Shown: piece after piece, positions 5,692 to 51,000 of the stretch
Position numbering within the stretch: position 1 is the first letter of the stretch
Layout of the letters: each line of letters starts with the position of its first letter
Assembly (NCBI RefSeq): GCF_004123145.1
Contig: NZ_SDKC01000001.1
Location: 1,631,501 to 1,695,500 of the forward strand
Direction of reading: 5' to 3'
From: Blautia faecicola
GTDB lineage: Bacteria > Bacillota > Clostridia > Lachnospirales > Lachnospiraceae
DNA length: 64,000 nucleotides
Notes under the pieces: generated by a model
What the model saw: only the letters and a program-made list of their open reading frames with translations
Databases searched by the model: none
Told to the model about the DNA's origin: nothing
Translations under genes and position numbers: made by a program

Positions 5692-5834
5692 AGTAACTAT
5701 TCAGTAGCCATTATCCCGCGAGGTGTTTTGGCATAAATATGCCAAAATCCCGAGACATACAAGCAAAAATGCCATCACCGAAGGTGATTTTAAATGCATT
5801 TTTGCTCGTAACTGTGAAGTTACTGAACAGTTAC
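5692..5834 (+). repeat. Dispersed structured repeat A, copy 1
   Basis: This 143-bp element is bounded by GTAACTATTCAGTA and TACTGAACAGTTAC (inverted, 13 of 14 match). Inside are three hairpins: 5726-5747; a long one pairing 5762-5771 with 5797-5806 around ATCACC-GAA-GGTGAT (5774-5788); and 5808-5815 with 5827-5834. Copies lie at 8608-8840 and 19582-19723 in the opposite orientation. It begins 8 bases after the frlB stop. No coding capacity is apparent. Confidence 0.9.
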
Positions 5835-8607: not shown

Positions 8608-8840
8608 GTAACTGTTCAGTATCTTCACAGTTACGAGCCAAAATGCATTTAAACGATAAAAACACGCTTTGCGAGTTTTTATCGTTATCGCGGCACTCCT
8701 CAAGGTTCCGTGCAAGCACGGACTTTGACTCGTTGCTCGCGTAAATCACCTTCGGTGATGGCATTTTGGCTTGTATGTTTCGGGATTTTGACATATTCAT
8801 GTCAAAACACCTCGCGGGACAGTGGCTACTGAATAGTTAC
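8608..8840 (-). repeat. Dispersed structured repeat A, copy 2, with nested repeat B
   Basis: This inverse-orientation copy has terminal GTAACTGTTCAGTA and TACTGAATAGTTAC. Its 233 bp are explained by an 88-bp insert at 8654-8741 in the apical part of the long hairpin; the insert is a copy of the sequence at 30430-30520. The hairpin at 8786-8807 reads TTTTGACAT/ATGTCAAAA where copies 1 and 3 read TTTTGGCAT/ATGCCAAAA, a compensated change. The long stem at 8636-8646/8761-8771 is likewise compensated (GCCAAAATG/CATTTTGGC versus GCAAAAATG/CATTTTTGC). Confidence 0.9.
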
Positions 8841-19581: not shown

Positions 19582-19723
19582 GTAACTGTTCAGTACCTTC
19601 ACAGTTACAAGCAAAAATGCATTTAAAATCACCTTCGGTGATGGCATTTTTGCTCGTATCTCTCGGGATTTTGGCATATTCATGCCAAAACACCTCGCGG
19701 AATATTACCTACGGAATAGTTGT
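19582..19723 (-). repeat. Dispersed structured repeat A, copy 3
   Basis: It is about 95% identical by eye to copy 1 in inverse orientation, with the same three hairpins. The outer end at 19710-19723 is degenerate (TACGGAATAGTTGT). It overlaps the 3' end of the neighbouring zinc-ribbon gene. Confidence 0.88.
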
Positions 19724-30576: not shown

Positions 30577-30650
30577 CGGGGTATGGCGTAGCTTGGTAGC
30601 GCGCACGGCTGGGGGCCGTGAGGTCGCAGGTTCAAATCCTGTTGCCCCGA
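30577..30650 (+). tRNA. tRNA-Pro(GGG)
   Basis: This 74-nt cloverleaf has acceptor CGGGGTA/TGCCCCG with discriminator A, D arm with AGCTTGGTAGCGC, anticodon stem CACGG/CCGTG around loop CTGGGGG (anticodon GGG), and T arm with GGTTCAAATCC. CCA is not encoded. It lies 26 bases upstream of the leuA promoter -35. Confidence 0.93.
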
Positions 30651-30705: not shown

Positions 30706-30715
30706 TTGTTTTGTA

Positions 30716-30993
30716 AAAAGCGTGGAAGAGGAAGAGTACAGAGGATTCGGCTTTCAGAGAACTGCTGGCTGGTGTGAAGCAGTGGATGAAGAGTTTGGAA
30801 CTGCCCTCGGAGCTGCTGCCTGAACGAAATATATTTCCAGTAGGAGTAGTCGGAACACCCCACCGTTATCACGGGGGAGGATATAAGGTGTAGACCCGTA
30901 TCTGGCAGAGTGCATGAAGAGATTCATGAAAAAGAGTGGTACCGCGTAGGAGATAATCCTTCGTCTCTTGAAAAGAGAGACGGAGTTTTTTTT
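30716..30993 (+). promoter_or_regulatory. T-box leader controlling leuA
   Basis: The T-box sequence AGAGTGGTACCGCG is at 30933-30946. It is preceded by a Stem I region with the usual AAGAGGAAGAGTA start and CTCGGAGCTG block, and followed by an intrinsic terminator (30959-30968 with 30976-30985, then eight T). Uncharged tRNA should stabilise the antiterminator and allow leuA transcription. A CTC leucine codon at 30806-30808 is the candidate specifier, which fits the gene, but I have not drawn Stem I fully. Confidence 0.9.
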
Positions 30994-31068
30994 GCGCATT
31001 TTTACATATCCATAAAGAAGATAGATGCCAGAGCTGTGCAGGGAATCAAATTTAGGAGGACAAGGAAC

Positions 31069-32721
31069 ATGATGAATTACAAAAAGTATGTAAGACAGTA
31101 TTTTATGCCACCGGTAAAATGCATGAAATGGGCAGAGAAAGAGTATGTAGAGAAAGCTCCGATCTGGTGCAGCGTGGATCTGCGTGACGGTAACCAGGCA
31201 CTGGTAATCCCGATGAGTCTGGAGCAGAAAATCGAGTTCTTCAAACTTCTGGTAAAGATCGGATTTAAGGAAATTGAAGTAGGTTTCCCGGCAGCATCCG
31301 AGACCGAGTATGAATTCTTAAGAGCACTGATCGAACAGAACCTGATTCCGGAAGATGTAACGATTCAGGTACTGACACAGGCAAGAGAACATATTATCCG
31401 TAAAACTTTTGAAGCGGTAAAAGGTGCACCGAGAGCCATCATTCATGTATACAATTCCACCTCTCTGAGCCAGAGAGAGCAGGTATTCCGCAAATCAAAA
31501 GAAGAGATCAAAAAGATCGCTGTAGACGGAGCCGCACTGTTAAAGAAACTGGCTGATGAGACAGACGGAAACTTCCTGTTCGAGTACAGCCCGGAAAGTT
31601 TCACCGGAACAGAACCGGAATATGCACTGGAAGTATGTAACGCCGTTCTGGATGTATGGAAACCAACCGCAGAGCAGAAAGCAATCATCAACCTGCCGGT
31701 AACCGTAGAACATTCCATGCCGCACGTATATGCAAGCCAGATCGAGTACATGTGCGACAATCTGAATTACAGAGAAAATGTTATCGTATCTCTGCATCCG
31801 CACAACGACCGTGGATGTGGTGTGGCAGACTCTGAACTTGGACTTCTTGCCGGTGCAGACCGTATCGAAGGAACACTGTTCGGAAACGGTGAGCGTACCG
31901 GTAACGTAGATATCATCACACTGGCTATGAATATGTATGCACAGGGTGTAGATCCGGAACTGGACTTCTCCGATATGCCTGATATCTGCGAAAAATATGA
32001 AAAATTCACCGGTATGAACGTAGACCCGAGAAGCCCGTACAGCGGTTCTCTGGTATTTGCCGCATTCTCCGGTTCCCATCAGGATGCAATCGCAAAAGGA
32101 ATGCACTGGATCGAAGAAAAAGACCCGGATCACTGGACTGTTCCGTATCTGCCGATCGATCCGAGAGATGTCGGAAGAAGCTACGATGCAAATGTTATCC
32201 GTATCAACAGCCAGTCCGGTAAAGGTGGCGTAGGCTATATTCTGGAAACAAAATACGGTCTGAACCTGCCGCCGAAGATGCGTGAAGCAATGGGATACGC
32301 AGCAAAAGCAGTATCTGATCATACTCATAAAGAACTTCATCCGGATGAGATCTTCGAACTGTTCAAAGAGACTTTCGAAAATGTCAAGAAACCGCTGGAT
32401 ATCCAGAAAGTACATTTCCAGCAGAATGGACACATTACCACACAGGTTACTTCTTCCTTCGAGGGTCGTGTGATCACAACCGAAGCAAATGGTAACGGAC
32501 GTCTGGATGCGGTAAGCAACGCACTGAAAAAAGCATACGACATGCAGTACACACTGGTTTCCTATACCGAGCATGCACTGGAGATGAGCACAAGCTCCAA
32601 AGCAATCGCATACGTAGGTATCCAGAAACCGGACGGATCCCTTTCCTGGGGCGCTGGCGTCGACAGCGACATCATCCGCGCTTCCATCGATGCCTTAGTT
32701 ACCGCTATTAATAACCGATAA
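31069..32721 (+). CDS. leuA: 2-isopropylmalate synthase, long (type 2) form
   Basis: LeuA condenses acetyl-CoA with 2-ketoisovalerate, the committed step to leucine. At 550 residues it is the type-2 form found in yeast, actinomycetes and many Firmicutes. The HMGL-like barrel starts with WCSVDLRDGNQALVIPM (metal Asp in DLRDGNQ), has EVGFPAAS and the His pair in SLHPHNDRGCG, and ends with the leucine-sensing domain (about 430-550). ATG 31069 (then a second ATG) follows AGGAGG at 31054-31059; open codons upstream lie in the T-box. It is separate from leuCD and controlled by the T-box. Confidence 0.95.
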   Translation: MMNYKKYVRQYFMPPVKCMKWAEKEYVEKAPIWCSVDLRDGNQALVIPMSLEQKIEFFKLLVKIGFKEIEVGFPAASETEYEFLRALIEQNLIPEDVTIQVLTQAREHIIRKTFEAVKGAPRAIIHVYNSTSLSQREQVFRKSKEEIKKIAVDGAALLKKLADETDGNFLFEYSPESFTGTEPEYALEVCNAVLDVWKPTAEQKAIINLPVTVEHSMPHVYASQIEYMCDNLNYRENVIVSLHPHNDRGCGVADSELGLLAGADRIEGTLFGNGERTGNVDIITLAMNMYAQGVDPELDFSDMPDICEKYEKFTGMNVDPRSPYSGSLVFAAFSGSHQDAIAKGMHWIEEKDPDHWTVPYLPIDPRDVGRSYDANVIRINSQSGKGGVGYILETKYGLNLPPKMREAMGYAAKAVSDHTHKELHPDEIFELFKETFENVKKPLDIQKVHFQQNGHITTQVTSSFEGRVITTEANGNGRLDAVSNALKKAYDMQYTLVSYTEHALEMSTSSKAIAYVGIQKPDGSLSWGAGVDSDIIRASIDALVTAINNR

Positions 32722-42499: not shown

Positions 42500-43837
42500 A
42501 TGGGTAAGAATACGACAAATGATATGACGCAGGGAAACTGTATGCGTTTGCTGGTACAGTTTTTCCTGCCGATCCTGGCAGGAAATCTGTTTCAGCAGTT
42601 ATACAGTTTTGCAGATTCCATGGTGGTGGGAAAAGGAATTGGCGATACGGCACTTGCAGCGGTTGGGAACACCGGTTCCGTACATTTTCTGATCATCGGT
42701 TTCGCAATCGGGCTGACAGGAGGATTGGGAATCTGTATTTCTCAGTCTTTTGGAAGTGGCAATTATAAAAAACTTCGTAAAGAGCTGGCAATGTCTGTCT
42801 GGATCTGTCTGGCCGTTGGGATTGTGATTACAGTGGTAAGTCTGGCCTTCATGCGGCAATTATTTACATTTCTCCATACACCGGAAGATCTGATGACGGA
42901 AACACTGCAATATTTCGGAACAATTCTTGCGGGAACCACCATTACAATTTTTAATAATTTTGCCATGACACTTCTGCGTTCCGTCGGAAACAGCCGGGTG
43001 CCTCTGGTTGCAATGATAATTTCTGCCATTGCTAATGTCCTGATGGATCTGTTATTCGTTTTTCCGTTGCATATGGGTGTTTTTGGTGCAGCGTTAGCCA
43101 CTGTTCTGGCACAGGTTCTGTCTGCGCTTTACTGCTGTTACTACATAGGAAGAGAAAAAAATCTGATCCCGAGAAAAACGGACTGGAAACCACAGGGCGT
43201 GATCATCAAAAAACTGACATTGAAAGGTCTGCCGGTTGCCGTTATGAATTCTGTCACTGCAGTGGGCGGAATGGTGTTACAGACGTTTGTCAACAATATG
43301 GGAACAAGCTATGTGGCTGCCTATGCGGCATGCACCAAGATCCTCGGTCTTTTTGAACAGCCGGCAAATACAGTGGGCCTGGCACTTCTTACTTTTGTGG
43401 GACAGAATTATGGTGCCGGAAAAAAGGAGCGGATACGTACCGGTATCCGGGAAGGAGTTATCCTGACGATCCTGATAAATATTCCACTGGCTCTGATGTT
43501 GCTGTGTATTCCTGAGTTTCTGACTTCTTTCATGTTGAATGATGCGTCGATTATTTCTTACACAAGAGATTTTCTGGCGGTTACAGGCATCTGTCTGTTT
43601 CCTCTGGGATGGCTGTTTGTGTTCCGCAACGGGTGTCAGGGCATGGGGCATACGTTTGTTCCGATGCTTTCAGGAGTCCTGGAAGTGTCTCTTCGAGTGG
43701 TCATGGTAAAGCTGCTGACTCCATATCTGGCTTTTCGTGGTGTTGCTCTGGCAGAAGTATCTGCCTGGATCGGCGCCTGGATCATGTTGATGATCACTTA
43801 CCGGATCTATCAGGAAAGAACGGATTCTTTTCGGTAA
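42500..43837 (+). CDS. MATE family efflux transporter
   Basis: This 445-residue membrane protein has 12 hydrophobic helices in two related halves, with family motifs QFFLPILAGNLFQQLYSFADSMVVGK (cut: GNLFQQLYSFADSMVVG) near the N-terminus and LLTFVGQNYGAG in the second half. MATE proteins exchange cations for drugs or metabolites. Upstream (42382-42392) lies TAGAATAGTAT, also found in the spacer before the GH13 cassette, so co-regulation is possible. Its last 28 bases overlap the convergent AraC gene. Confidence 0.9.
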   Translation: MGKNTTNDMTQGNCMRLLVQFFLPILAGNLFQQLYSFADSMVVGKGIGDTALAAVGNTGSVHFLIIGFAIGLTGGLGICISQSFGSGNYKKLRKELAMSVWICLAVGIVITVVSLAFMRQLFTFLHTPEDLMTETLQYFGTILAGTTITIFNNFAMTLLRSVGNSRVPLVAMIISAIANVLMDLLFVFPLHMGVFGAALATVLAQVLSALYCCYYIGREKNLIPRKTDWKPQGVIIKKLTLKGLPVAVMNSVTAVGGMVLQTFVNNMGTSYVAAYAACTKILGLFEQPANTVGLALLTFVGQNYGAGKKERIRTGIREGVILTILINIPLALMLLCIPEFLTSFMLNDASIISYTRDFLAVTGICLFPLGWLFVFRNGCQGMGHTFVPMLSGVLEVSLRVVMVKLLTPYLAFRGVALAEVSAWIGAWIMLMITYRIYQERTDSFR

Positions 43838-44691
43838 GTCTGAGGAGAACATCCTACCTTGGTGCGAAACTGTCGATTGAAATTTGAAAGGTTATGAAAT
43901 CCGGTATCGAAAGCAATGTCGGAGATATTGCGATCCGTATTGCGCAGAAGGTCGCATGCTGATCGGATACGTACCTGATTCAGATATTCAATGGCTCCGA
44001 GACCGAAATTCTGTTTGAAACAGCTCATAAAGTAACTGCTGCTCATATGAGCGATCTTTGCCAGCTGCTCTATGGTAACAGATTCGGAATGATGTTTCTG
44101 TATATAAGTGAGAACAGGCCGAAGTGTTTCGGTCAGCCGGGATTCTGTCGAAGCCGTGTGTTCGGTGCAGAGTCCCGGTGTCGATGCCAGCAGATAAAAT
44201 AAGCGAAGCAGTTCGCTTTTCAGCAACAGATCCGACGTTGCAAGATTTTTGTGCGCACACTGCATAATAGTCCGGACCGAATCATGGAGTTCATGATACC
44301 CCTGGTTTTCCTGAGATACAGGGACCAGAACTCTTCGCCTGGAAGAAAAGATCGGCAGCAGAATATCTGTATAACAACGGTCATCGTAACTTCCCACCAG
44401 CATATTCTGATGAAAAACAATGGTATCATAAAAAAAAGAGCTGTGCTCATCCGACATGATAGCATGAAGGACGTTGGGCTGGATCAGAAAGATGTCTCCC
44501 GGTTTGGCAGAGATGGTCTGATCCTCGTATTTGAAAAAACCATTTCCAGATTTTATGTAATTTAATTCCATTTCACTGTGCCAGTGTAGCGGTACACTCG
44601 TAAAATAATCCGGTATACCGCAGTCATAGTAACTGTATGGAACCTGAATGGATCCGTGTTGGCATTTCTCTTTTATCGCATAAAGATTCAT
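43810..44691 (-). CDS. AraC-family regulator of the GH13/oxidoreductase cassette
   Basis: This 293-residue regulator has an N-terminal cupin sensor (PLHWHSEMELNYIKSGNG, FLIQPNVLHAI) and a C-terminal AraC DNA-binding domain (VTIEQLAKIAHMSSSYFMSCFKQNFG; ISDIAFDTGFHNLSNFNRQFR, both shortened). The start at 44691 has GGAG 9-10 bases upstream; the longer open frame has no ribosome site and an implausible hydrophobic leader. It is divergent from the GH13 gene across 427 bases that contain several AATAGTAT boxes, the expected layout for a sugar-responsive activator. Confidence 0.9.
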   Translation of the reverse strand: MNLYAIKEKCQHGSIQVPYSYYDCGIPDYFTSVPLHWHSEMELNYIKSGNGFFKYEDQTISAKPGDIFLIQPNVLHAIMSDEHSSFFYDTIVFHQNMLVGSYDDRCYTDILLPIFSSRRRVLVPVSQENQGYHELHDSVRTIMQCAHKNLATSDLLLKSELLRLFYLLASTPGLCTEHTASTESRLTETLRPVLTYIQKHHSESVTIEQLAKIAHMSSSYFMSCFKQNFGLGAIEYLNQVRIRSACDLLRNTDRNISDIAFDTGFHNLSNFNRQFRTKVGCSPQTYRKESVLS

Positions 44692-45118
44692 AACATACGC
44701 CTCCGTAAAATAAATATCTCCGGCAGAATAATTAAAATCATAGAATAGTATTGCCAAGAATACTGTTTCCGGGAAATATAAAAGAATCAGTTGTAATATA
44801 TCATATAATGATACGTGTTGCAACGGAAAACAGGGAAGGGTATGATGTTGCAGAATGAAAATCTGTGGCATCAGGAACCCTTTTTTGCTGTGAAAAATAA
44901 TATAAATTATTTTTTGAGAATAAAATATGGGATAAAAATAGCCAAAAAAAATATATGAATAAGAAGAAATACAAGAATATTATACAAAAACAATAGAATA
45001 GTATCAGAAATAAATAGTATATTGCTGGAAATGTAGGAAAATAAATAGTATTCTGGTAAGCGAAGGTAGTTGTTATAGAGAAACGAGACAACATCAGAAA
45101 GAAAGAGGGTTTTACAAA
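44692..45118. promoter_or_regulatory. AraC-GH13 spacer with four AATAGTAT boxes
   Basis: The 427-base AT-rich divergent region contains no gene. Exact AATAGTAT boxes lie at 44744-44751, 44997-45004, 45013-45020 and 45044-45051. The first is near the AraC start; the other three cluster 70-125 bases before the GH13 start, with centre spacings of 16 and 31 bases. They are candidate operators for the adjacent regulator. The GH13 ribosome site is weak (GAAAGAGGG). Confidence 0.5.
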
Positions 45119-46669
45119 ATGTCAAAATGGTTAGATAATGCAATTTTTTATGAAATCTATCCGCAGTCATTTAAAGATACTAACGGGGACGGAATCGGAG
45201 ATTTTCAGGGTATTATCGAAAAGTTAGATTACATCAGAGAACTTGGATGTAACGCTTTATGGATCAATCCTTGTTTTCTCTCTCCGTTCGGAGATGCAGG
45301 ATACGATGTTGCAGATTACTGTCGTGTAGCTCCACGTTACGGAACCAACGAAGATCTGAAACAGTTATTTGAAGAAGCACATAAAAAGGGAATTCATGTA
45401 CTGCTGGATCTGGTGCCGGGACATACTTCTATAGAGCACCCATGGTTCATCGAATCCATGAAAGCAGATAAGAACCCATATACCGACCGCTATATCTGGA
45501 CCGATAAAGTATGGGAATCACCGGAGGTCAGCTTCGGCGGCTCTCTGAGAGGTATCTCTGAGCGTGACGGTGCGGTGGCTGTCAACTTCTTCTCTAATCA
45601 GCCGGCATTAAACTATGGTTTCTATCAGCCGGATCCGGAGAAACCGTGGCAGCAGTCAATCGACGATGAAGGACCACAGGCAACTATCGCAGCTATGGAA
45701 GACGTTATGAGATTCTGGCTGGGTATGGGATGTGACGGTTTCCGTGTTGATATGGCCGAGTCTCTGGTGAAAAATGACCCGGAGAAAAAAGGAACCATCC
45801 GTGTATGGAAACAGATCAGAGAATTCCTTGATAAAGAATTTCCGGATGCAGCAATGGTATCTGAATGGGGTGATCCACAGAGATCTCTGGAGGGAGGATT
45901 CCACATGGACTTTCTGCTGGAGTTTGGTACTTCACATTCCAACGATCTGTTCCGCTGCAAAGAGCCGTATTTTTCATCCCGTGCAAAAGGAAATATCTAT
46001 GATTTCGTAGAATCCTATAAAGAAAACTGCGAAAAGACAGCCGGCAAAGGTCTGATGTGTATGTTTTCAGGAAACCATGATGTAGATCGCCTGGCACGCC
46101 ATCTTCACGGTGATGAATTGAAAGTGGCTTTTGCATTTATCCTGTCTATGCCAGGTGCGCCATTTATCTATTATGGCGATGAAATCGGTATGCGTTATGT
46201 AGAAGGACTGAAATCTGTAGAAGGCGGTTACAACCGTACCGGTTCCCGTTCTCCGATGCAGTGGGATGACAGCACCAACGCAGGCTTTTCCAGTGCACCG
46301 GCAAGTGATCTGTATATTGCCATGGATCCGGATAAAGATCGGCCAACAGCAAAGAAAGAGATGGCAGCTCCGGATTCTCTGTATCATGAAGTGAAAAAAC
46401 TGATCCGGATCCGTCAGAGCCACAAAGCTCTGCAGAGCCGAGGAAAGATCACTTTTGTTTATGCGGAAAAGAATGCATATCCGCTGGCATACATCCGTGA
46501 AGCCGGTGATGAGAAGATCCTTGTGATTATCAACGCAGCCGCAGAGGTAAAAACATTTGCATGCGATGCAGAGCCAAAAGAAGCAATCTATAATTTTGGC
46601 GTAGCCGCAGAGGTTAAAAATGGAAAAATAACTGTTCCGGCACAGTCAGCAGGATTTTACCGGATCTGA
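45119..46669 (+). CDS. GH13 alpha-glucosidase-type glycoside hydrolase
   Basis: This 516-residue cytoplasmic enzyme of the alpha-amylase family starts NAIFYEIYPQSFKDTNGDG (Ca-binding-type loop DTNGDGIGDF). It has GCDGFRVDMA with nucleophile Asp211, MVSEWGD with acid/base Glu249, and SGNHDVD with Asp321. The absence of a signal peptide and the oligo-1,6-glucosidase-like loops suggest action on imported short alpha-glucosides. It leads the cassette with two Gfo/Idh/MocA proteins and two TIM barrels and is divergent from an AraC gene. The substrate linkage cannot be read from sequence alone. Confidence 0.88.
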   Translation: MSKWLDNAIFYEIYPQSFKDTNGDGIGDFQGIIEKLDYIRELGCNALWINPCFLSPFGDAGYDVADYCRVAPRYGTNEDLKQLFEEAHKKGIHVLLDLVPGHTSIEHPWFIESMKADKNPYTDRYIWTDKVWESPEVSFGGSLRGISERDGAVAVNFFSNQPALNYGFYQPDPEKPWQQSIDDEGPQATIAAMEDVMRFWLGMGCDGFRVDMAESLVKNDPEKKGTIRVWKQIREFLDKEFPDAAMVSEWGDPQRSLEGGFHMDFLLEFGTSHSNDLFRCKEPYFSSRAKGNIYDFVESYKENCEKTAGKGLMCMFSGNHDVDRLARHLHGDELKVAFAFILSMPGAPFIYYGDEIGMRYVEGLKSVEGGYNRTGSRSPMQWDDSTNAGFSSAPASDLYIAMDPDKDRPTAKKEMAAPDSLYHEVKKLIRIRQSHKALQSRGKITFVYAEKNAYPLAYIREAGDEKILVIINAAAEVKTFACDAEPKEAIYNFGVAAEVKNGKITVPAQSAGFYRI

Positions 46670-46682
46670 GAAAACATAAGAT

Positions 46683-46776
46683 AGTTGACAGCTGTTCGCG
46701 AAGATTTATGCGATTCGTATAAATTCTGTACATCGCGTAGCGTGTTACTGGGTACAGAGTGAACAGTAATGTTATG
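46683..46776. repeat. Possible diverged repeat A/B relative between GH13 and the first oxidoreductase gene
   Basis: The ends GACAGCTGTTC and GAACAGTAAT resemble repeat A termini. Inside, GCGAAGATTTATGCGA pairs with TCGTATAAATTC, and CATCGCGTAGCGTG recalls repeat B. Similarity is weak. Confidence 0.35.
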
Positions 46777-46804
46777 ATAATTAAATTATATATGGAGGTG
46801 TAAA

Positions 46805-47869
46805 ATGAGGGAAAACAAAGTAGTTTACGGACTGATCGGATATGGCGGAATGGGCAGATGGCATACGGAGATCCTTTCCAATGTTCCGGAAGCCGTAATC
46901 GGTGGCATCTATGACATCAAGGAAGAAAAGAGAGAAGAAGCGAAGGAGAAGGGCTTTTTTGTATATGAAACAGAAGAAGCTATGCTGGCAGATCCGGATA
47001 TCGATGTGGTTCTGATCGCTACTCCGAATGACTGCCACAAACCTATCGCCATCCGTGCCATGCATGCAGGGAAGAATGTAATATCGGAAAAACCGGTGAC
47101 ATTATCTTCCGCTGATCTGCTGGAGATGGAAAATGCAGCCAAAGAGACAGGAAAATTACTTACTGTACACCAGAACAGACGGTGGGATGATGATTTCCTG
47201 ATCATCAAAAAGCTGGTAGAGGAGCAGAAACTGGGACATGTCTTCCGGATCGAGAGCCGTGTCCATGGTTCAAGAGGTATCCCGGGCGACTGGAGAAAAG
47301 AAAAGGTCCATGGTGGCGGAATGGTCCTGGACTGGGGCGTACATCTGCTGGATCAGATCTTATATATGTACGGTGACAGAAAGATCGAGACCGTATACGC
47401 CTCACTTACCAATGTCACCAACCAGGAAGTGGACGATGGCTTCACTGCTATCCTGACCTTTGAAGGTGGAACGGAAGTCCTGGTGGAAGTCGGCACCAAC
47501 AATTATATTTCTCTGCCGAGATGGTATGTACTGGGAGAAGACGGTACCGCAGTGATCCGGGACTGGCAGTTAAACGGTGAGATCATCCGTAAGACCGGTA
47601 TGACGGAAGAGACGGTAGTACCGGTTAAGACAGCAGCCGGTCTGACAAAGACCATGGCACCGAGACGGGAAGATACCATTGTGAAAGAAGACTTACCAAA
47701 AGTATCCGGAGATATTGCAGACTTCCACAGAAATGTAGTTGCAGTGATCCGGGACGGAGCAGAACCTGAGATCAAACTGTTCCAGGTGATGCGCGTGATG
47801 AAACTGATGGAAGCAATTTTCCAGTCAGCGGAGACAAACCAGGTGATCGAATTTCAGGATCAGGTGTAA
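46805..47869 (+). CDS. Gfo/Idh/MocA family NAD(P)-dependent oxidoreductase (first)
   Basis: This 354-residue protein has an N-terminal Rossmann fold (GYGGMG at residues 12-17), SEKPV with the catalytic-type Lys96, and DWGVH (Asp176, His180) in the alpha/beta substrate domain. This Lys-Asp-His set is used by sugar dehydrogenases that oxidise a ring hydroxyl, such as C3 of levoglucosan or glucosides. Gly-rich GGAGGTG precedes the ATG. It follows GH13 by 135 bases with no clear terminator. With the three following genes it makes a possible oxidise-eliminate-hydrate-reduce pathway. Its stop codon lies in a repeat-A-like end (GTAACAGGGAA). Confidence 0.88.
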   Translation: MRENKVVYGLIGYGGMGRWHTEILSNVPEAVIGGIYDIKEEKREEAKEKGFFVYETEEAMLADPDIDVVLIATPNDCHKPIAIRAMHAGKNVISEKPVTLSSADLLEMENAAKETGKLLTVHQNRRWDDDFLIIKKLVEEQKLGHVFRIESRVHGSRGIPGDWRKEKVHGGGMVLDWGVHLLDQILYMYGDRKIETVYASLTNVTNQEVDDGFTAILTFEGGTEVLVEVGTNNYISLPRWYVLGEDGTAVIRDWQLNGEIIRKTGMTEETVVPVKTAAGLTKTMAPRREDTIVKEDLPKVSGDIADFHRNVVAVIRDGAEPEIKLFQVMRVMKLMEAIFQSAETNQVIEFQDQV

Positions 47870-47895
47870 CAGGGAAGAACGTGAACAGTTATAAG
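47862..47895 (+). repeat. Remnant repeat A end at the stop of the first oxidoreductase
   Basis: GTAACAGGGAAGAACGTGAA (47865 onward) then CAGTTATAAG resembles the 3' hairpin of repeat A (GTAACTGTGAAG..ACTGAACAGTTAC). TAA of the gene is inside it. Confidence 0.5.
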
Positions 47896-47950
47896 TAGAA
47901 ACCATAAATAAAAATTAAAAATAAATGGGAGAAAACAGGAGGAAATAAGT

Positions 47951-48829
47951 ATGAAACAGATTAGAATCGGAACCTGCGTGCCGGGTACAAAGGCGGAAGA
48001 ATGGTTAAAGGGATTTGCGGGAAAAGGCTTTGAAACATTTTCCATCAATTTCCATATGTCACTGGAAGGAACAGACCTTGACAAACTGGCACTGAACACA
48101 GAAAAGATTCTTGCCGGTACAGATTCCAAGATCACTACCGTTGGATACTACTGTAACCCGATCCAGTACGCAGAGCACAGAAAAACACTGGAAAAGGTGA
48201 TCTGCACTGCTGAAAAATTCGGAGCTACCCACGTAAGCACCTTTGCAGGAGCCTGGGAAGGAAAACCGGTAGAATCCGCATACGAAGAGTTCGGAAAAGT
48301 GTTCCGTGAACTGGCAGACCTTGCAGAAGAGAAAGGTGTGAAACTGGGTATCGAAAACTGCCTGATGGATGGAACCTGGGAACATGCCACCTGCAACATC
48401 GGTTTCAACCCGAAAGCCTGGGAAGTGATGTTTGAGGAAGTAAAGAATGACAACTTCGGTCTGGAATGGGAGCCGACCCACCAGATGGTACAGCTGATCG
48501 ACCCTGTGACAGAGCTGAGAAAATGGTGCAAAAAGATCGTCCATGTACATGGAAAAGATGCGACCATCGACTGGGATGCAGTAAGACACGGCGGTATCTC
48601 CGGAGCAGTTCCGTTCGTATGGCACCGTATGCCTGGATTTGGTGACACAAACTGGAGAGATATCATTTCTATCCTGAGAAGCAACGGATATGAGGACGAT
48701 ATCTGTATCGAGGGATATCATGATCCGGTATACCGGGGAGAACTGGAGATGACCGGACAGCTCCACGCACTGAACTATCTGAAATGGTGCCGTGGTGGTG
48801 AATTCACACCAACCCCATGGGAAAAATAA
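47951..48829 (+). CDS. Xylose-isomerase-like TIM barrel protein (sugar phosphate isomerase/epimerase family), first
   Basis: This 292-residue protein has a candidate metal site formed by Glu135 (GIENC), Glu174 (WEPTHQ), His200 (HVHGKD) and Glu254 (IEGYHD), the barrel positions used by this superfamily; the second ligand is Glu where Asp is commoner. Family members act as epimerases, isomerases and, in 3-keto-sugar pathways, as beta-eliminases or hydratases. GGAGG precedes the ATG. It lies between an oxidoreductase and a second TIM barrel of the same family, so a lyase or hydratase role on an oxidised glycoside is plausible. Confidence 0.85.
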   Translation: MKQIRIGTCVPGTKAEEWLKGFAGKGFETFSINFHMSLEGTDLDKLALNTEKILAGTDSKITTVGYYCNPIQYAEHRKTLEKVICTAEKFGATHVSTFAGAWEGKPVESAYEEFGKVFRELADLAEEKGVKLGIENCLMDGTWEHATCNIGFNPKAWEVMFEEVKNDNFGLEWEPTHQMVQLIDPVTELRKWCKKIVHVHGKDATIDWDAVRHGGISGAVPFVWHRMPGFGDTNWRDIISILRSNGYEDDICIEGYHDPVYRGELEMTGQLHALNYLKWCRGGEFTPTPWEK

Positions 48830-48837
48830 CACAGATA

Positions 48838-48878
48838 ATAGCTGTTCGGTACCTTCACAATGGTGCTGAACAGCATAC
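48838..48878 (-). repeat. Remnant repeat A end
   Basis: AGCTGTTCGGTACCTTCACA matches the GTAACTGTTCAGTACCTTCACA end of repeat A copy 3; TGCTGAACAGC closes the hairpin. Confidence 0.6.
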
Positions 48879-48910
48879 AGAAAAATTAAAAGATACAGGA
48901 GGGCATTCCT

Positions 48911-49831
48911 ATGAAACTTGGGTTTGTTACAGCGATCCTTGACAGCTGGAACTATGAAGAGATGATGGATTTTGCATCTGAGCAGGGATTCGAGTGTGTG
49001 GAAGTGGCATGCTGGCCACAGGAAAAAGCAGAAAGAAGATATGCCGGTGTAAGCCATATCGATGCAGAACGGGTCAACCAGGATGATGCATATGCGGAGC
49101 ATATCGTGGAATATGCAAAAAAATCAGGAGTGGAGATCTCGTCACTGGCCTATTATCCAAACGTAATGGCGGCAGATAAAGCGAAAAGCGCAGCCGCTGT
49201 GGAACACCTGAAACAGGTGATCCTTGCAAGTAGGAAATTAGGTGTGGGCATGGTTACCACATTTATCGGAAGGGACCAGACCAAAAATGTACAGGAGAAC
49301 CTGGAACTGGTAAAAGAGATCTGGCCGCCGATCATAAAACTGGCTGAGGAATGTGACGTGAAGGTCGCCATCGAAAACTGCCCGATGCTTTTCGGCGAGG
49401 ACCAGTGGCCGGGAGGACAGAACCTGATGACAACACCGCCGATCTGGAGAGAGGTATTCCGGATTCTGGACAGCGACCATCTGGGCATCAACTACGATCC
49501 ATCCCACTTTATCTGGCAGATGATCGACTATATCCGCCCACTTTATGAGTTCAAAGACAAGATCTTCCATGTCCACTATAAGGATATCAAGATCTACAAA
49601 GACAAGCTGGAATCCTGCGGTATCATGGCATATCCGCTGGAATACATGTCACCGAAGCTCCCGGGACTCGGAGATGTAGACTGGGGAAAATATGTATCAG
49701 CACTTACGGATATCGGATATGACGGATATACATGCATTGAGGTCGAGGACAAGGCCTTTGAAGATTCCAAGGAAAAGGTTGAGAATTCTTTGATCCTCAG
49801 TAAGAGATATCTGGAACAGTTCGTGATTTAA
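48911..49831 (+). CDS. Xylose-isomerase-like TIM barrel protein, second
   Basis: This 306-residue protein belongs to the same family as the preceding gene but is well diverged. Its metal ligands are the classical set: Glu155 (AIENCP), Asp196 (NYDPSH), His222 (HVHYKD) and Glu277 (CIEVED). LGLGDVDW-type PGLGDVDWG near 251-259 is the usual substrate-loop block. AGGAGG lies 9 bases before the ATG. Having two different TIM barrels of this family side by side fits a two-step elimination and rehydration scheme better than a simple epimerase role. Confidence 0.87.
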   Translation: MKLGFVTAILDSWNYEEMMDFASEQGFECVEVACWPQEKAERRYAGVSHIDAERVNQDDAYAEHIVEYAKKSGVEISSLAYYPNVMAADKAKSAAAVEHLKQVILASRKLGVGMVTTFIGRDQTKNVQENLELVKEIWPPIIKLAEECDVKVAIENCPMLFGEDQWPGGQNLMTTPPIWREVFRILDSDHLGINYDPSHFIWQMIDYIRPLYEFKDKIFHVHYKDIKIYKDKLESCGIMAYPLEYMSPKLPGLGDVDWGKYVSALTDIGYDGYTCIEVEDKAFEDSKEKVENSLILSKRYLEQFVI

Positions 49832-49860
49832 TATAGAATAAAGAAAAAGGAGATAATATC

Positions 49861-50937
49861 ATGAGAAAATTAAAAGCAGGAATCGTAGGATGCGGAGGAA
49901 TCGCCAACGGAAAACATCTTCCGGCTATGAAGAAAAGTGATCTCTATGAGATCGTAGCTTTCTGTGACATCATCAGAGACCGTGCAGAGAAAGCAAAAAA
50001 AGAATATGGTACAGAAGATGCAAAAGTATTTGAAGACTATCAGGAGCTTATCAAAGAGGACCTGGATGTTGTATATGTAACCACACCGAACCGCTCCCAT
50101 GCAGAGATCTCTATCGCAGCCATGGAAGCAGGAAAAGATGTTATGTGTGAAAAACCGATGGCAAAGAATTATGCAGAAGCACAGAAGATGGTGGAGACTT
50201 CAGAGAAAACAGGCAGAATTCTGAACATCGGATACCAGAACCGTTACCGTCCAGACTCCCTGTTTCTGAAGGAGATGTGCAAGGCTGACGAACTGGGAGA
50301 GATCTACTTTGCAAAAGCCCATGCACTCAGAAGAAGAGCAGTTCCTACCTGGGGTGTATTCTTAAATGAAGAAGAACAGGGCGGCGGTCCGTTGATCGAT
50401 ATCGGAACCCATGCACTGGACCTGACTTTATGGATGATGGACAACTATGAAGTAGAGTCTGTAACAGGACAGACTTTCCGCAAACTGGCTGACCAGACCA
50501 ATCAGGGAAATGATTTTGGAGACTGGGATCCGAAGGAATTCAGTGTAGAAGATTCCGCTTTCGGATTCATCCGTATGAAAAACGGTGCAGTGATCGAGCT
50601 GGAAGCAGCCTGGGCACTGAACACACTGGAAGTTGATGAGGCCAAGACAAGTCTGTGCGGAACAAAAGCCGGAGCAGATATGAAAGACGGCCTGCGGATC
50701 AACTACATCCACCACAATAAACAGGTAGTAGAGAAACCGGCATTATTCGGCGAAGGAGTAGCATTCTTCTCAGGAGAAGAGAAAGAAGCACCGGACTATG
50801 AGCAGGAACTGTTCTACCACATCGTTGCAGACGGAGCAGAACAGATTGTAAAACCTGCGCAGGCTGCAGTTGTCACCCGTGTACTGGAAGCAATCTATGA
50901 GTCAGCAAAGAGCGGTAAGACAATTTATTTTGATTAA
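49861..50937 (+). CDS. Gfo/Idh/MocA family oxidoreductase (second)
   Basis: This 358-residue protein has Rossmann motif GCGGIA (residues 10-15), CEKPM with Lys98, and IDIGTHALDL with Asp180 and His184. It is clearly a different subfamily from the first oxidoreductase and carries the longer insertion DQTNQGNDFGDWDPKEFSVED. In a redox-neutral scheme it would reduce the 3-keto sugar released by the TIM barrels and regenerate the cofactor used by the first enzyme. It starts 29 bases after the previous gene (AAGGAG site) and is followed by a strong terminator. Confidence 0.88.
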   Translation: MRKLKAGIVGCGGIANGKHLPAMKKSDLYEIVAFCDIIRDRAEKAKKEYGTEDAKVFEDYQELIKEDLDVVYVTTPNRSHAEISIAAMEAGKDVMCEKPMAKNYAEAQKMVETSEKTGRILNIGYQNRYRPDSLFLKEMCKADELGEIYFAKAHALRRRAVPTWGVFLNEEEQGGGPLIDIGTHALDLTLWMMDNYEVESVTGQTFRKLADQTNQGNDFGDWDPKEFSVEDSAFGFIRMKNGAVIELEAAWALNTLEVDEAKTSLCGTKAGADMKDGLRINYIHHNKQVVEKPALFGEGVAFFSGEEKEAPDYEQELFYHIVADGAEQIVKPAQAAVVTRVLEAIYESAKSGKTIYFD

Positions 50938-50970: not shown

Positions 50971-51000
50971 AGGGTCAGTCGTGATAGACTGACCCTTTTC
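50971..51000 (+). terminator. Rho-independent terminator ending the carbohydrate cassette
   Basis: GGGTCAGTC (50972-50980) pairs with GACTGACCC across a short loop, followed by TTTTC. Confidence 0.9.

Follow-up and report, generated by a model that had tools for sequence, protein, structure and literature searches.

Gut bacteria reportedly break down glycans of broad range by successive oxidation, elimination, hydration and reduction, a finding ascribed to Nasseri et al. in Nature in 2024, and we take BT2156-BT2160 to be the Bacteroides cluster for this route. The available excerpts of three reports show that the chemistry is already known for levoglucosan (PMC7676230) and for flavonoid O- and C-glucosides (PMC10628242, PMC8563793). 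According to the accessible part of a further paper, DgpA-type enzymes oxidise C3 of glucose in C- and O-glucosides, and NADH is re-oxidised with 3-oxo-glucose (PMC11239390). Here we describe a related gene run of Blautia faecicola. It lies in a stretch of 64,000 nucleotides (the window, G000:C1:1631501-1695500) within a 3.74-Mb genome in 5 contigs, and consists of a GH13 gene followed by a cassette of four genes, encoding a Gfo/Idh/MocA oxidoreductase (A), two AP_endonuc_2 barrels (TB1 and TB2) and another Gfo/Idh/MocA oxidoreductase (B). With moderate confidence, drawn from homology, structure models and gene neighbourhood, we propose that A-TB1-TB2-B cleaves O-glycosides by oxidation-elimination-hydration-reduction without a hydrolase.

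This route is the best-supported reading of the cassette because B is DgpA-like, the predicted fold of TB2 is near that of AtHYD, and A, B and TB2 are common to C-glycoside eliminase operons. B (49861..50937, + strand, 358 aa), the putative glycoside 3-dehydrogenase, is 56.8% identical to DgpA (7xr9) over 352 positions and 57.8% identical to DgpA1 (9m3d) over 353, and by homology it belongs with the DgpA-type glycoside 3-dehydrogenases of the Dgp/Dfg system. A (46805..47869, + strand, 354 aa) is a putative 3-keto-glucose reductase that could also be the oxidiser. It shows 50.3% identity over 340 positions to PDB 3e18, named only "oxidoreductase", scores 211 bits with DgpA2 (9m37), whose structure was deposited as a complex with isoorientin, and shares 45% identity with the A-like protein of a DgpBC locus (L039). 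A preliminary description of this DNA had given the oxidation to A; B, being more closely related to DgpA, appears the likelier candidate, and the final reduction could be carried out by A or B. EKP and a D..H motif are present in both Gfo proteins; the meaning of these motifs, as of the D/E/D motifs kept by GH13, is presumed here.

Neither protein reaches the models of other characterised families. The LgdA model NF052479 gave 85.1 bits for A and 98.3 for B against a cut-off of 650; membership in the levoglucosan pathway was rejected on these scores, and levoglucosan or another anhydrosugar, suggested earlier as substrate, finds no support. The IolG model TIGR04380 gave 128 and 97.6 bits for the two proteins (cut-off 355), and the Bacteroides BT2158 and BT2159 models NF058561 and NF058563 at most 65.5 bits against 750 and 54.6 against 650.

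TB2 (48911..49831, + strand, 306 aa), a putative 2-hydroxy-3-keto-glucal hydratase, retains all four metal ligands (E155, D196, H222 and E277; ligand roles by homology). Its predicted model is nearest to the uncharacterised SCO6571 and to AtHYD (8ro4), a 2-hydroxy-3-keto-glucal hydratase, which makes AtHYD the nearest solved fold of known function for this model. Sequence searches were more even: one returned Art22 (2.9e-12) and then 8ro4 (8.9e-12), level with IolE 3cny (9.3e-12), and another placed IolE (5.9e-6) ahead of 8ro4 (1.2e-4). TB2 orthologs (E<=6.4e-96) are present in 28 of 200 genomes of the family Lachnospiraceae, its own included. More distant TB2-like barrels (L126-L180) are found in Planctomycetota, Poribacteria, Chloroflexi, Verrucomicrobia and others, and 35 of the 36 aligned share 44-54% identity with TB2; they form a widespread family whose function is not named in the libraries searched.

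We compared the surroundings of TB2 in 30 loci, that is, the 32 close places outside its own genome, minus four near contig ends (G170:C354, G051:C313, G110:C69 and G081:C95), plus the distant L064 and L065. A Gfo match of at least 50 bits lies within 6.5 kb in 28 of them (the exceptions are L040 and L047), a DgpA-type B (at least 390 bits) in nine, and CGDB, the beta subunit of C-glycoside deglycosidation enzymes, in seven. Six of these seven CGDB loci (L037, L038, L039, L048, L051, L063) combine TB2, a DgpA-type B, an A-like protein, CGDB and a DgpC-like barrel. Pfam detected CGDB in both L037 and L039, and the L037 pair matches solved CGD subunits.

In the proposed route, B would oxidise C3 of the non-reducing sugar using bound NAD+. 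At a divalent metal, TB1 would remove the acidified proton of C2; beta-elimination would then release the aglycone or second sugar and give 2-hydroxy-3-keto-glucal, which TB2 would hydrate to 3-keto-glucose. A, or B in a ping-pong cycle, would reduce 3-keto-glucose to glucose; as this would regenerate NAD+, the route would have no net redox cost. The proteins are probably intracellular, with no signal peptide seen by eye and none computed. By analogy with BT2158, trehalose, palatinose and leucrose are candidate substrates (PMC11300592, in its accessible part).

The weak point is the elimination. The class of pathway given in the preliminary description is upheld by the DgpA-like B, the AtHYD-like fold of TB2 and the genes shared with eliminase operons, but its elimination step is assigned to TB1 by vacancy. 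We infer that TB1 (47951..48829, + strand, 292 aa) may be a 3-keto-O-glycoside eliminase, the least certain role in the cassette, chiefly because it occupies the slot held by DgpBC in C-glycoside eliminase loci. TB1 keeps its four metal ligands (E135, E174, H200 and E254; roles by homology). Several observations weigh against the assignment. Sequence and structure searches found no characterised close relative of TB1. The H-x-H motif of AtOGE-type eliminases, comprising the first metal ligand and the catalytic His, is absent from both barrels, which have E-N-C instead, and DgpC is the best match of neither. In addition, many TB1 relatives have no oxidoreductase match nearby. A scan of named genomes, taken as its best 80 loci, included no named locus for the O-deglycosylating DfgC/DfgD of Eubacterium cellulosolvens and contained 25 relatives of TB1 (L101-L125), 24 of them full-length at 41-98% identity and one cut by a contig end; Gfo matches were strong in 10 of these loci, weak in one (L122, 49 bits, tallied separately and labelled "noGfo" on the tree) and absent from 14, three of which (L107, L110, L113) lie on contigs shorter than 6.3 kb. 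A fixed tie between TB1 and the cassette was rejected on these 14 of 25 relatives, and the tree labels need 5 and 6 changes.

TB1 relatives down to 55% identical do accompany A, B and either TB2 or TB3 in separate cassettes; at this identity or above, 5 of the 200 family genomes have an ortholog, its own included and one partial. L102 (Roseburia faecis M72) and L103 (a metagenome-assembled genome) carry a two-component system, ABC genes, A, TB1, TB2 and B, with a GH3 also detected by Pfam in L102. Another arrangement (L106, L115 and L097) consists of TB3, A, an OGE-like barrel, TB1 and B, and parts of it are found at contig ends in L105 and L125. The OGE-like barrel of L097 (253 aa from its Met) has HNHD and ligands at 129, 162, 188 and 228, corresponding to 132, 163, 189 and 233 in AtOGE. 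H-N-H is present in all eight OGE-like barrels found (L097, L105, L106, two in L115, L125, L191 and L193). The B. faecicola genome has no close OGE-like barrel; its single match covers residues 2-200 at 28%. Anaerocolumna sp. AGMB13025 has the parts at three separate sites, where B accompanies an OGE-like barrel (131 bits), TB3 lies with A and GH38, and TB1 lies with ABC genes.

We tentatively suggest, while considering it rather doubtful, that TB1 represents a third, so far undescribed class of 3-keto-glycoside eliminase that depends on a metal, lacks the catalytic His of CGD and OGE and has Glu replacing the usual Asp ligand. Such an enzyme might accept both alpha- and beta-linked leaving groups, letting one cassette be duplicated within a genome, behind an alpha-acting GH13 and beside GH3. 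Because the adjoining glycosidases differ (GH13, GH3, GH38, and GH1 beside such a gene set in L039), the cassettes do not seem bound to one linkage. In Clostridia, GH38 alpha-mannosidases adjoin TB1 in L112 and L113, and lie near TB1 and B in L120 and near TB3 and A in L192; these barrels may therefore be connected with mannosides.

The same pathway might also run with the parts assigned differently. TB2 could be bifunctional, performing elimination and hydration, or elimination could be spontaneous, with TB1 as an accessory that isomerises, for example, 2-keto and 3-keto forms or acts on another substrate. The accessible parts of two papers indicate that LgdB1 is partly replaceable by LgdB2 (PMC7676230) and that non-enzymatic breakdown of 3-oxo-O-glycosides can occur (PMC11239390), and the TB1 loci without a Gfo match, together with those where TB1 sits beside an OGE-like barrel, agree with an accessory role. 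We nevertheless hold this to be unlikely, given the company that TB1 keeps in separate cassettes down to the identity noted above.

A slightly smaller chance attaches to oxidation-epimerisation-reduction as in E. coli YcjQRS, where a barrel would epimerise a 3-keto-glycoside that is reduced back to a glucoside and then hydrolysed by GH13 or GH3. This would account for the downstream-acting glycosidase beside both cassette copies; YcjR (6wn6, a 3-keto-D-glucoside 4-epimerase) stands at rank 15 among the Foldseek matches of TB1, and ABC genes occur in the ycj cluster together with two sugar dehydrogenases and two phosphorylases (PMC11543891, in the part available). The 50 VIA rows listed for each barrel do not include YcjR, a weak point that excludes nothing. 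The two Gfo proteins of the cassette and its lack of a zinc dehydrogenase, as which YcjQ is annotated in a Listeria table, also speak against this reading, as do the closeness of TB2 in fold to a hydratase and its presence in eliminase operons. Ordinary catabolism of a free polyol or sugar, such as inositol use or ketose epimerisation by Gfo dehydrogenases and epimerases, is very improbable. It is true that IolG, IolE and tagatose/psicose 3-epimerases belong to these two protein families, that folds of this kind take up much of the structure lists, and that both barrels match IolE 3cny in sequence; yet the IolE model TIGR04379 reached 37.9 and 38.2 bits for the barrels (cut-off 290), a psicose epimerase model 22.7 against 300, the IolG scores also lay far below their cut-off, and B is 57% identical to DgpA. 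Inositol catabolism was rejected on the IolG and IolE scores, and a placement with inositol pathways, named at the outset as fatal to the proposal, did not materialise.

Returning to cleavage by oxidation-elimination-hydration-reduction, the cassette occurs twice in the genome. The second copy (C1:249.2-253.5 kb; L005 13193-17543) is 96-98% identical in DNA gene by gene. It is preceded by a histidine kinase, a response regulator, two ABC permeases and a binding protein (L005 6597-13136) and followed by GH3, a GH28-family protein and an esterase. The binding-protein gene (L005 11431-13136) appears as two overlapping frames, an apparent frameshift or assembly error. As part of our overall explanation, and with the moderate assurance given to it, we regard the cassette as a module, which stands once after AraC-GH13 and once after a two-component system and ABC transporter, before GH3. 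The window copy has diverged from the second copy about as much as from its counterpart in Oliverpabstia intestinalis, the closest named relative among the loci found, whose TB1 is 98% identical and stands in the same gene order. The GH13-linked site is probably the younger, because O. intestinalis carries the GH13-linked copy alone, and R. faecis the ABC-linked one alone, in the assemblies searched.

The GH13 alpha-glucosidase-like protein (45119..46669, + strand, 516 aa; 283.8 bits to PF00128) was under the cut-off of all of the best 25 of the 36 NCBIfam models matched. At E<=1e-90 its relatives are found in 25 of the 200 family genomes, its own included. Ten GH13 loci, from 10 of the 23 genomes with relatives outside the genus, were compared: no cassette gene adjoins GH13 in any of them, and three (L181, L187, L190) have the divergent AraC without the cassette, which fits a younger GH13-linked site. 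GH13 looks like an acquired neighbour of the cassette because its relatives in these ten other Lachnospiraceae genomes are without one. Its candidacy as a natural cassette partner was rejected on the same count, and its supposed role as an integral substrate feeder finds no support there either, the second cassette having GH3 instead.

At the window locus, the divergent AraC-family regulator (43810..44871, - strand, 353 aa) has HTH_18 and an AraC-type ligand-binding domain in Pfam; it and the five genes of the run are all well over the Pfam cut-off of their main family. The run is flanked by a MatE gene with the divergent AraC gene on one side and by mutS on the other, and the order AraC-GH13-A-TB1-TB2-B-mutS, with AraC divergent, recurs in a same-genus genome (L036) and in O. 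intestinalis (L101), which may be one genome. The open reading frame list, Pfam and the ligand residues thus bear out the five genes, the AraC gene and the metal ligands first reported. The run is operon-like in that its genes share one strand, but a transcript including GH13 is unsupported: the spacer between GH13 and A (46670..46804, + strand, 135 bp) is the largest gap, those following being 81 (A-TB1), 81 (TB1-TB2) and 29 bp (TB2-B), and homology to the second copy begins within it, at 46792. The announced strong terminator corresponds to a real hairpin 3' of B (50971..50996, + strand; 10 pairs, 6 of them G-C), followed on the + strand by no more than a short T run, and its terminator function is uncertain; the terminator scanner reported it on the - strand only. 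Terminator-like sites in the region were not above shuffles (7 against a mean of 6.2, sd 2.4), nor were promoter-like sites (17 against 14.0, sd 4.9). No sugar transporter adjoins the window locus, where the neighbour is the MatE protein, as first described, but an ABC transporter stands beside the second copy.

An intergenic, palindrome-rich element of about 138 bp occurs in the window at 5693-5828 (-), 8614-8840 (interrupted) and 19588-19721 (+), between A and TB1 in the second cassette copy (L005 14258-14395), and between TB2 and B in O. intestinalis. At least 44 matches at 81-100% identity, some partial, were found in the genome (40 of 88 candidates scored). Rfam at its gathering threshold has no match to the element in the window; it resembles a miniature inverted-repeat transposable element or a repetitive extragenic palindrome. 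Elsewhere in the window, a tRNA gene (30577-30650) directly precedes a T-box leader (30714-30971), followed by an alpha-isopropylmalate synthase gene (30910-32721).

If our reading is right, a genus of gut Lachnospiraceae opens glycosidic bonds, some of them poorly handled by hydrolases, by a redox-neutral route whose parts are exchanged between C-glycoside and O-glycoside operons. It would suggest a candidate function for two families called merely xylose-isomerase-like barrels in the libraries searched, and it makes directly testable which of the two barrels eliminates and which hydrates.

These known systems, as described in the accessible parts of the papers cited, differ in what they share with the cassette. 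The levoglucosan cluster LgdA-B1-B2-C (PMC7676230, PMC10066097) likewise has two Gfo/Idh/MocA and two AP_endonuc_2 genes clustered, and the ABC genes beside the second copy recall B. smithii, but neither window Gfo protein reaches the LgdA model. Bacteroides BT2158 follows the same logic, the glycoside 3-dehydrogenase being needed for trehalose, palatinose and leucrose (PMC11300592), but the BT2158/BT2159 family models are far under cut-off for the window proteins, and BT2158 is periplasmic whereas the window cassette, judged by eye only, is probably intracellular. E. coli YcjQRS (PMC11543891) shares 3-keto-glycoside chemistry, dehydrogenases with an epimerase/isomerase barrel, and adjoining ABC genes; it has one barrel and, according to the title of a reference cited there, interconverts gulosides and glucosides and does not cleave them. 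The Agrobacterium O-glucoside pathway (PMC10628242) comprises the AtOGE eliminase, the AtHYD hydratase and a Gfo reductase; TB1 is without the AtOGE motif, which a barrel in related cassettes does have. The Dgp/Dfg C-glycoside deglycosidation system of gut bacteria (PMC8563793, PMC11170127) shares a DgpA-type B, a second Gfo protein and, in six of the 30 TB2 loci, a TB2-type barrel. The window cassette is without the CGDB beta subunit (PF19906) and DgpC, and has TB1 in their place; a search of the genome for PF19906 gave no match, but no control match either, so that absence is not established. What is new here is TB1, without a characterised close relative in the searches made, the combination of genes, and the duplicated module with its exchanged glycosidase and regulator.

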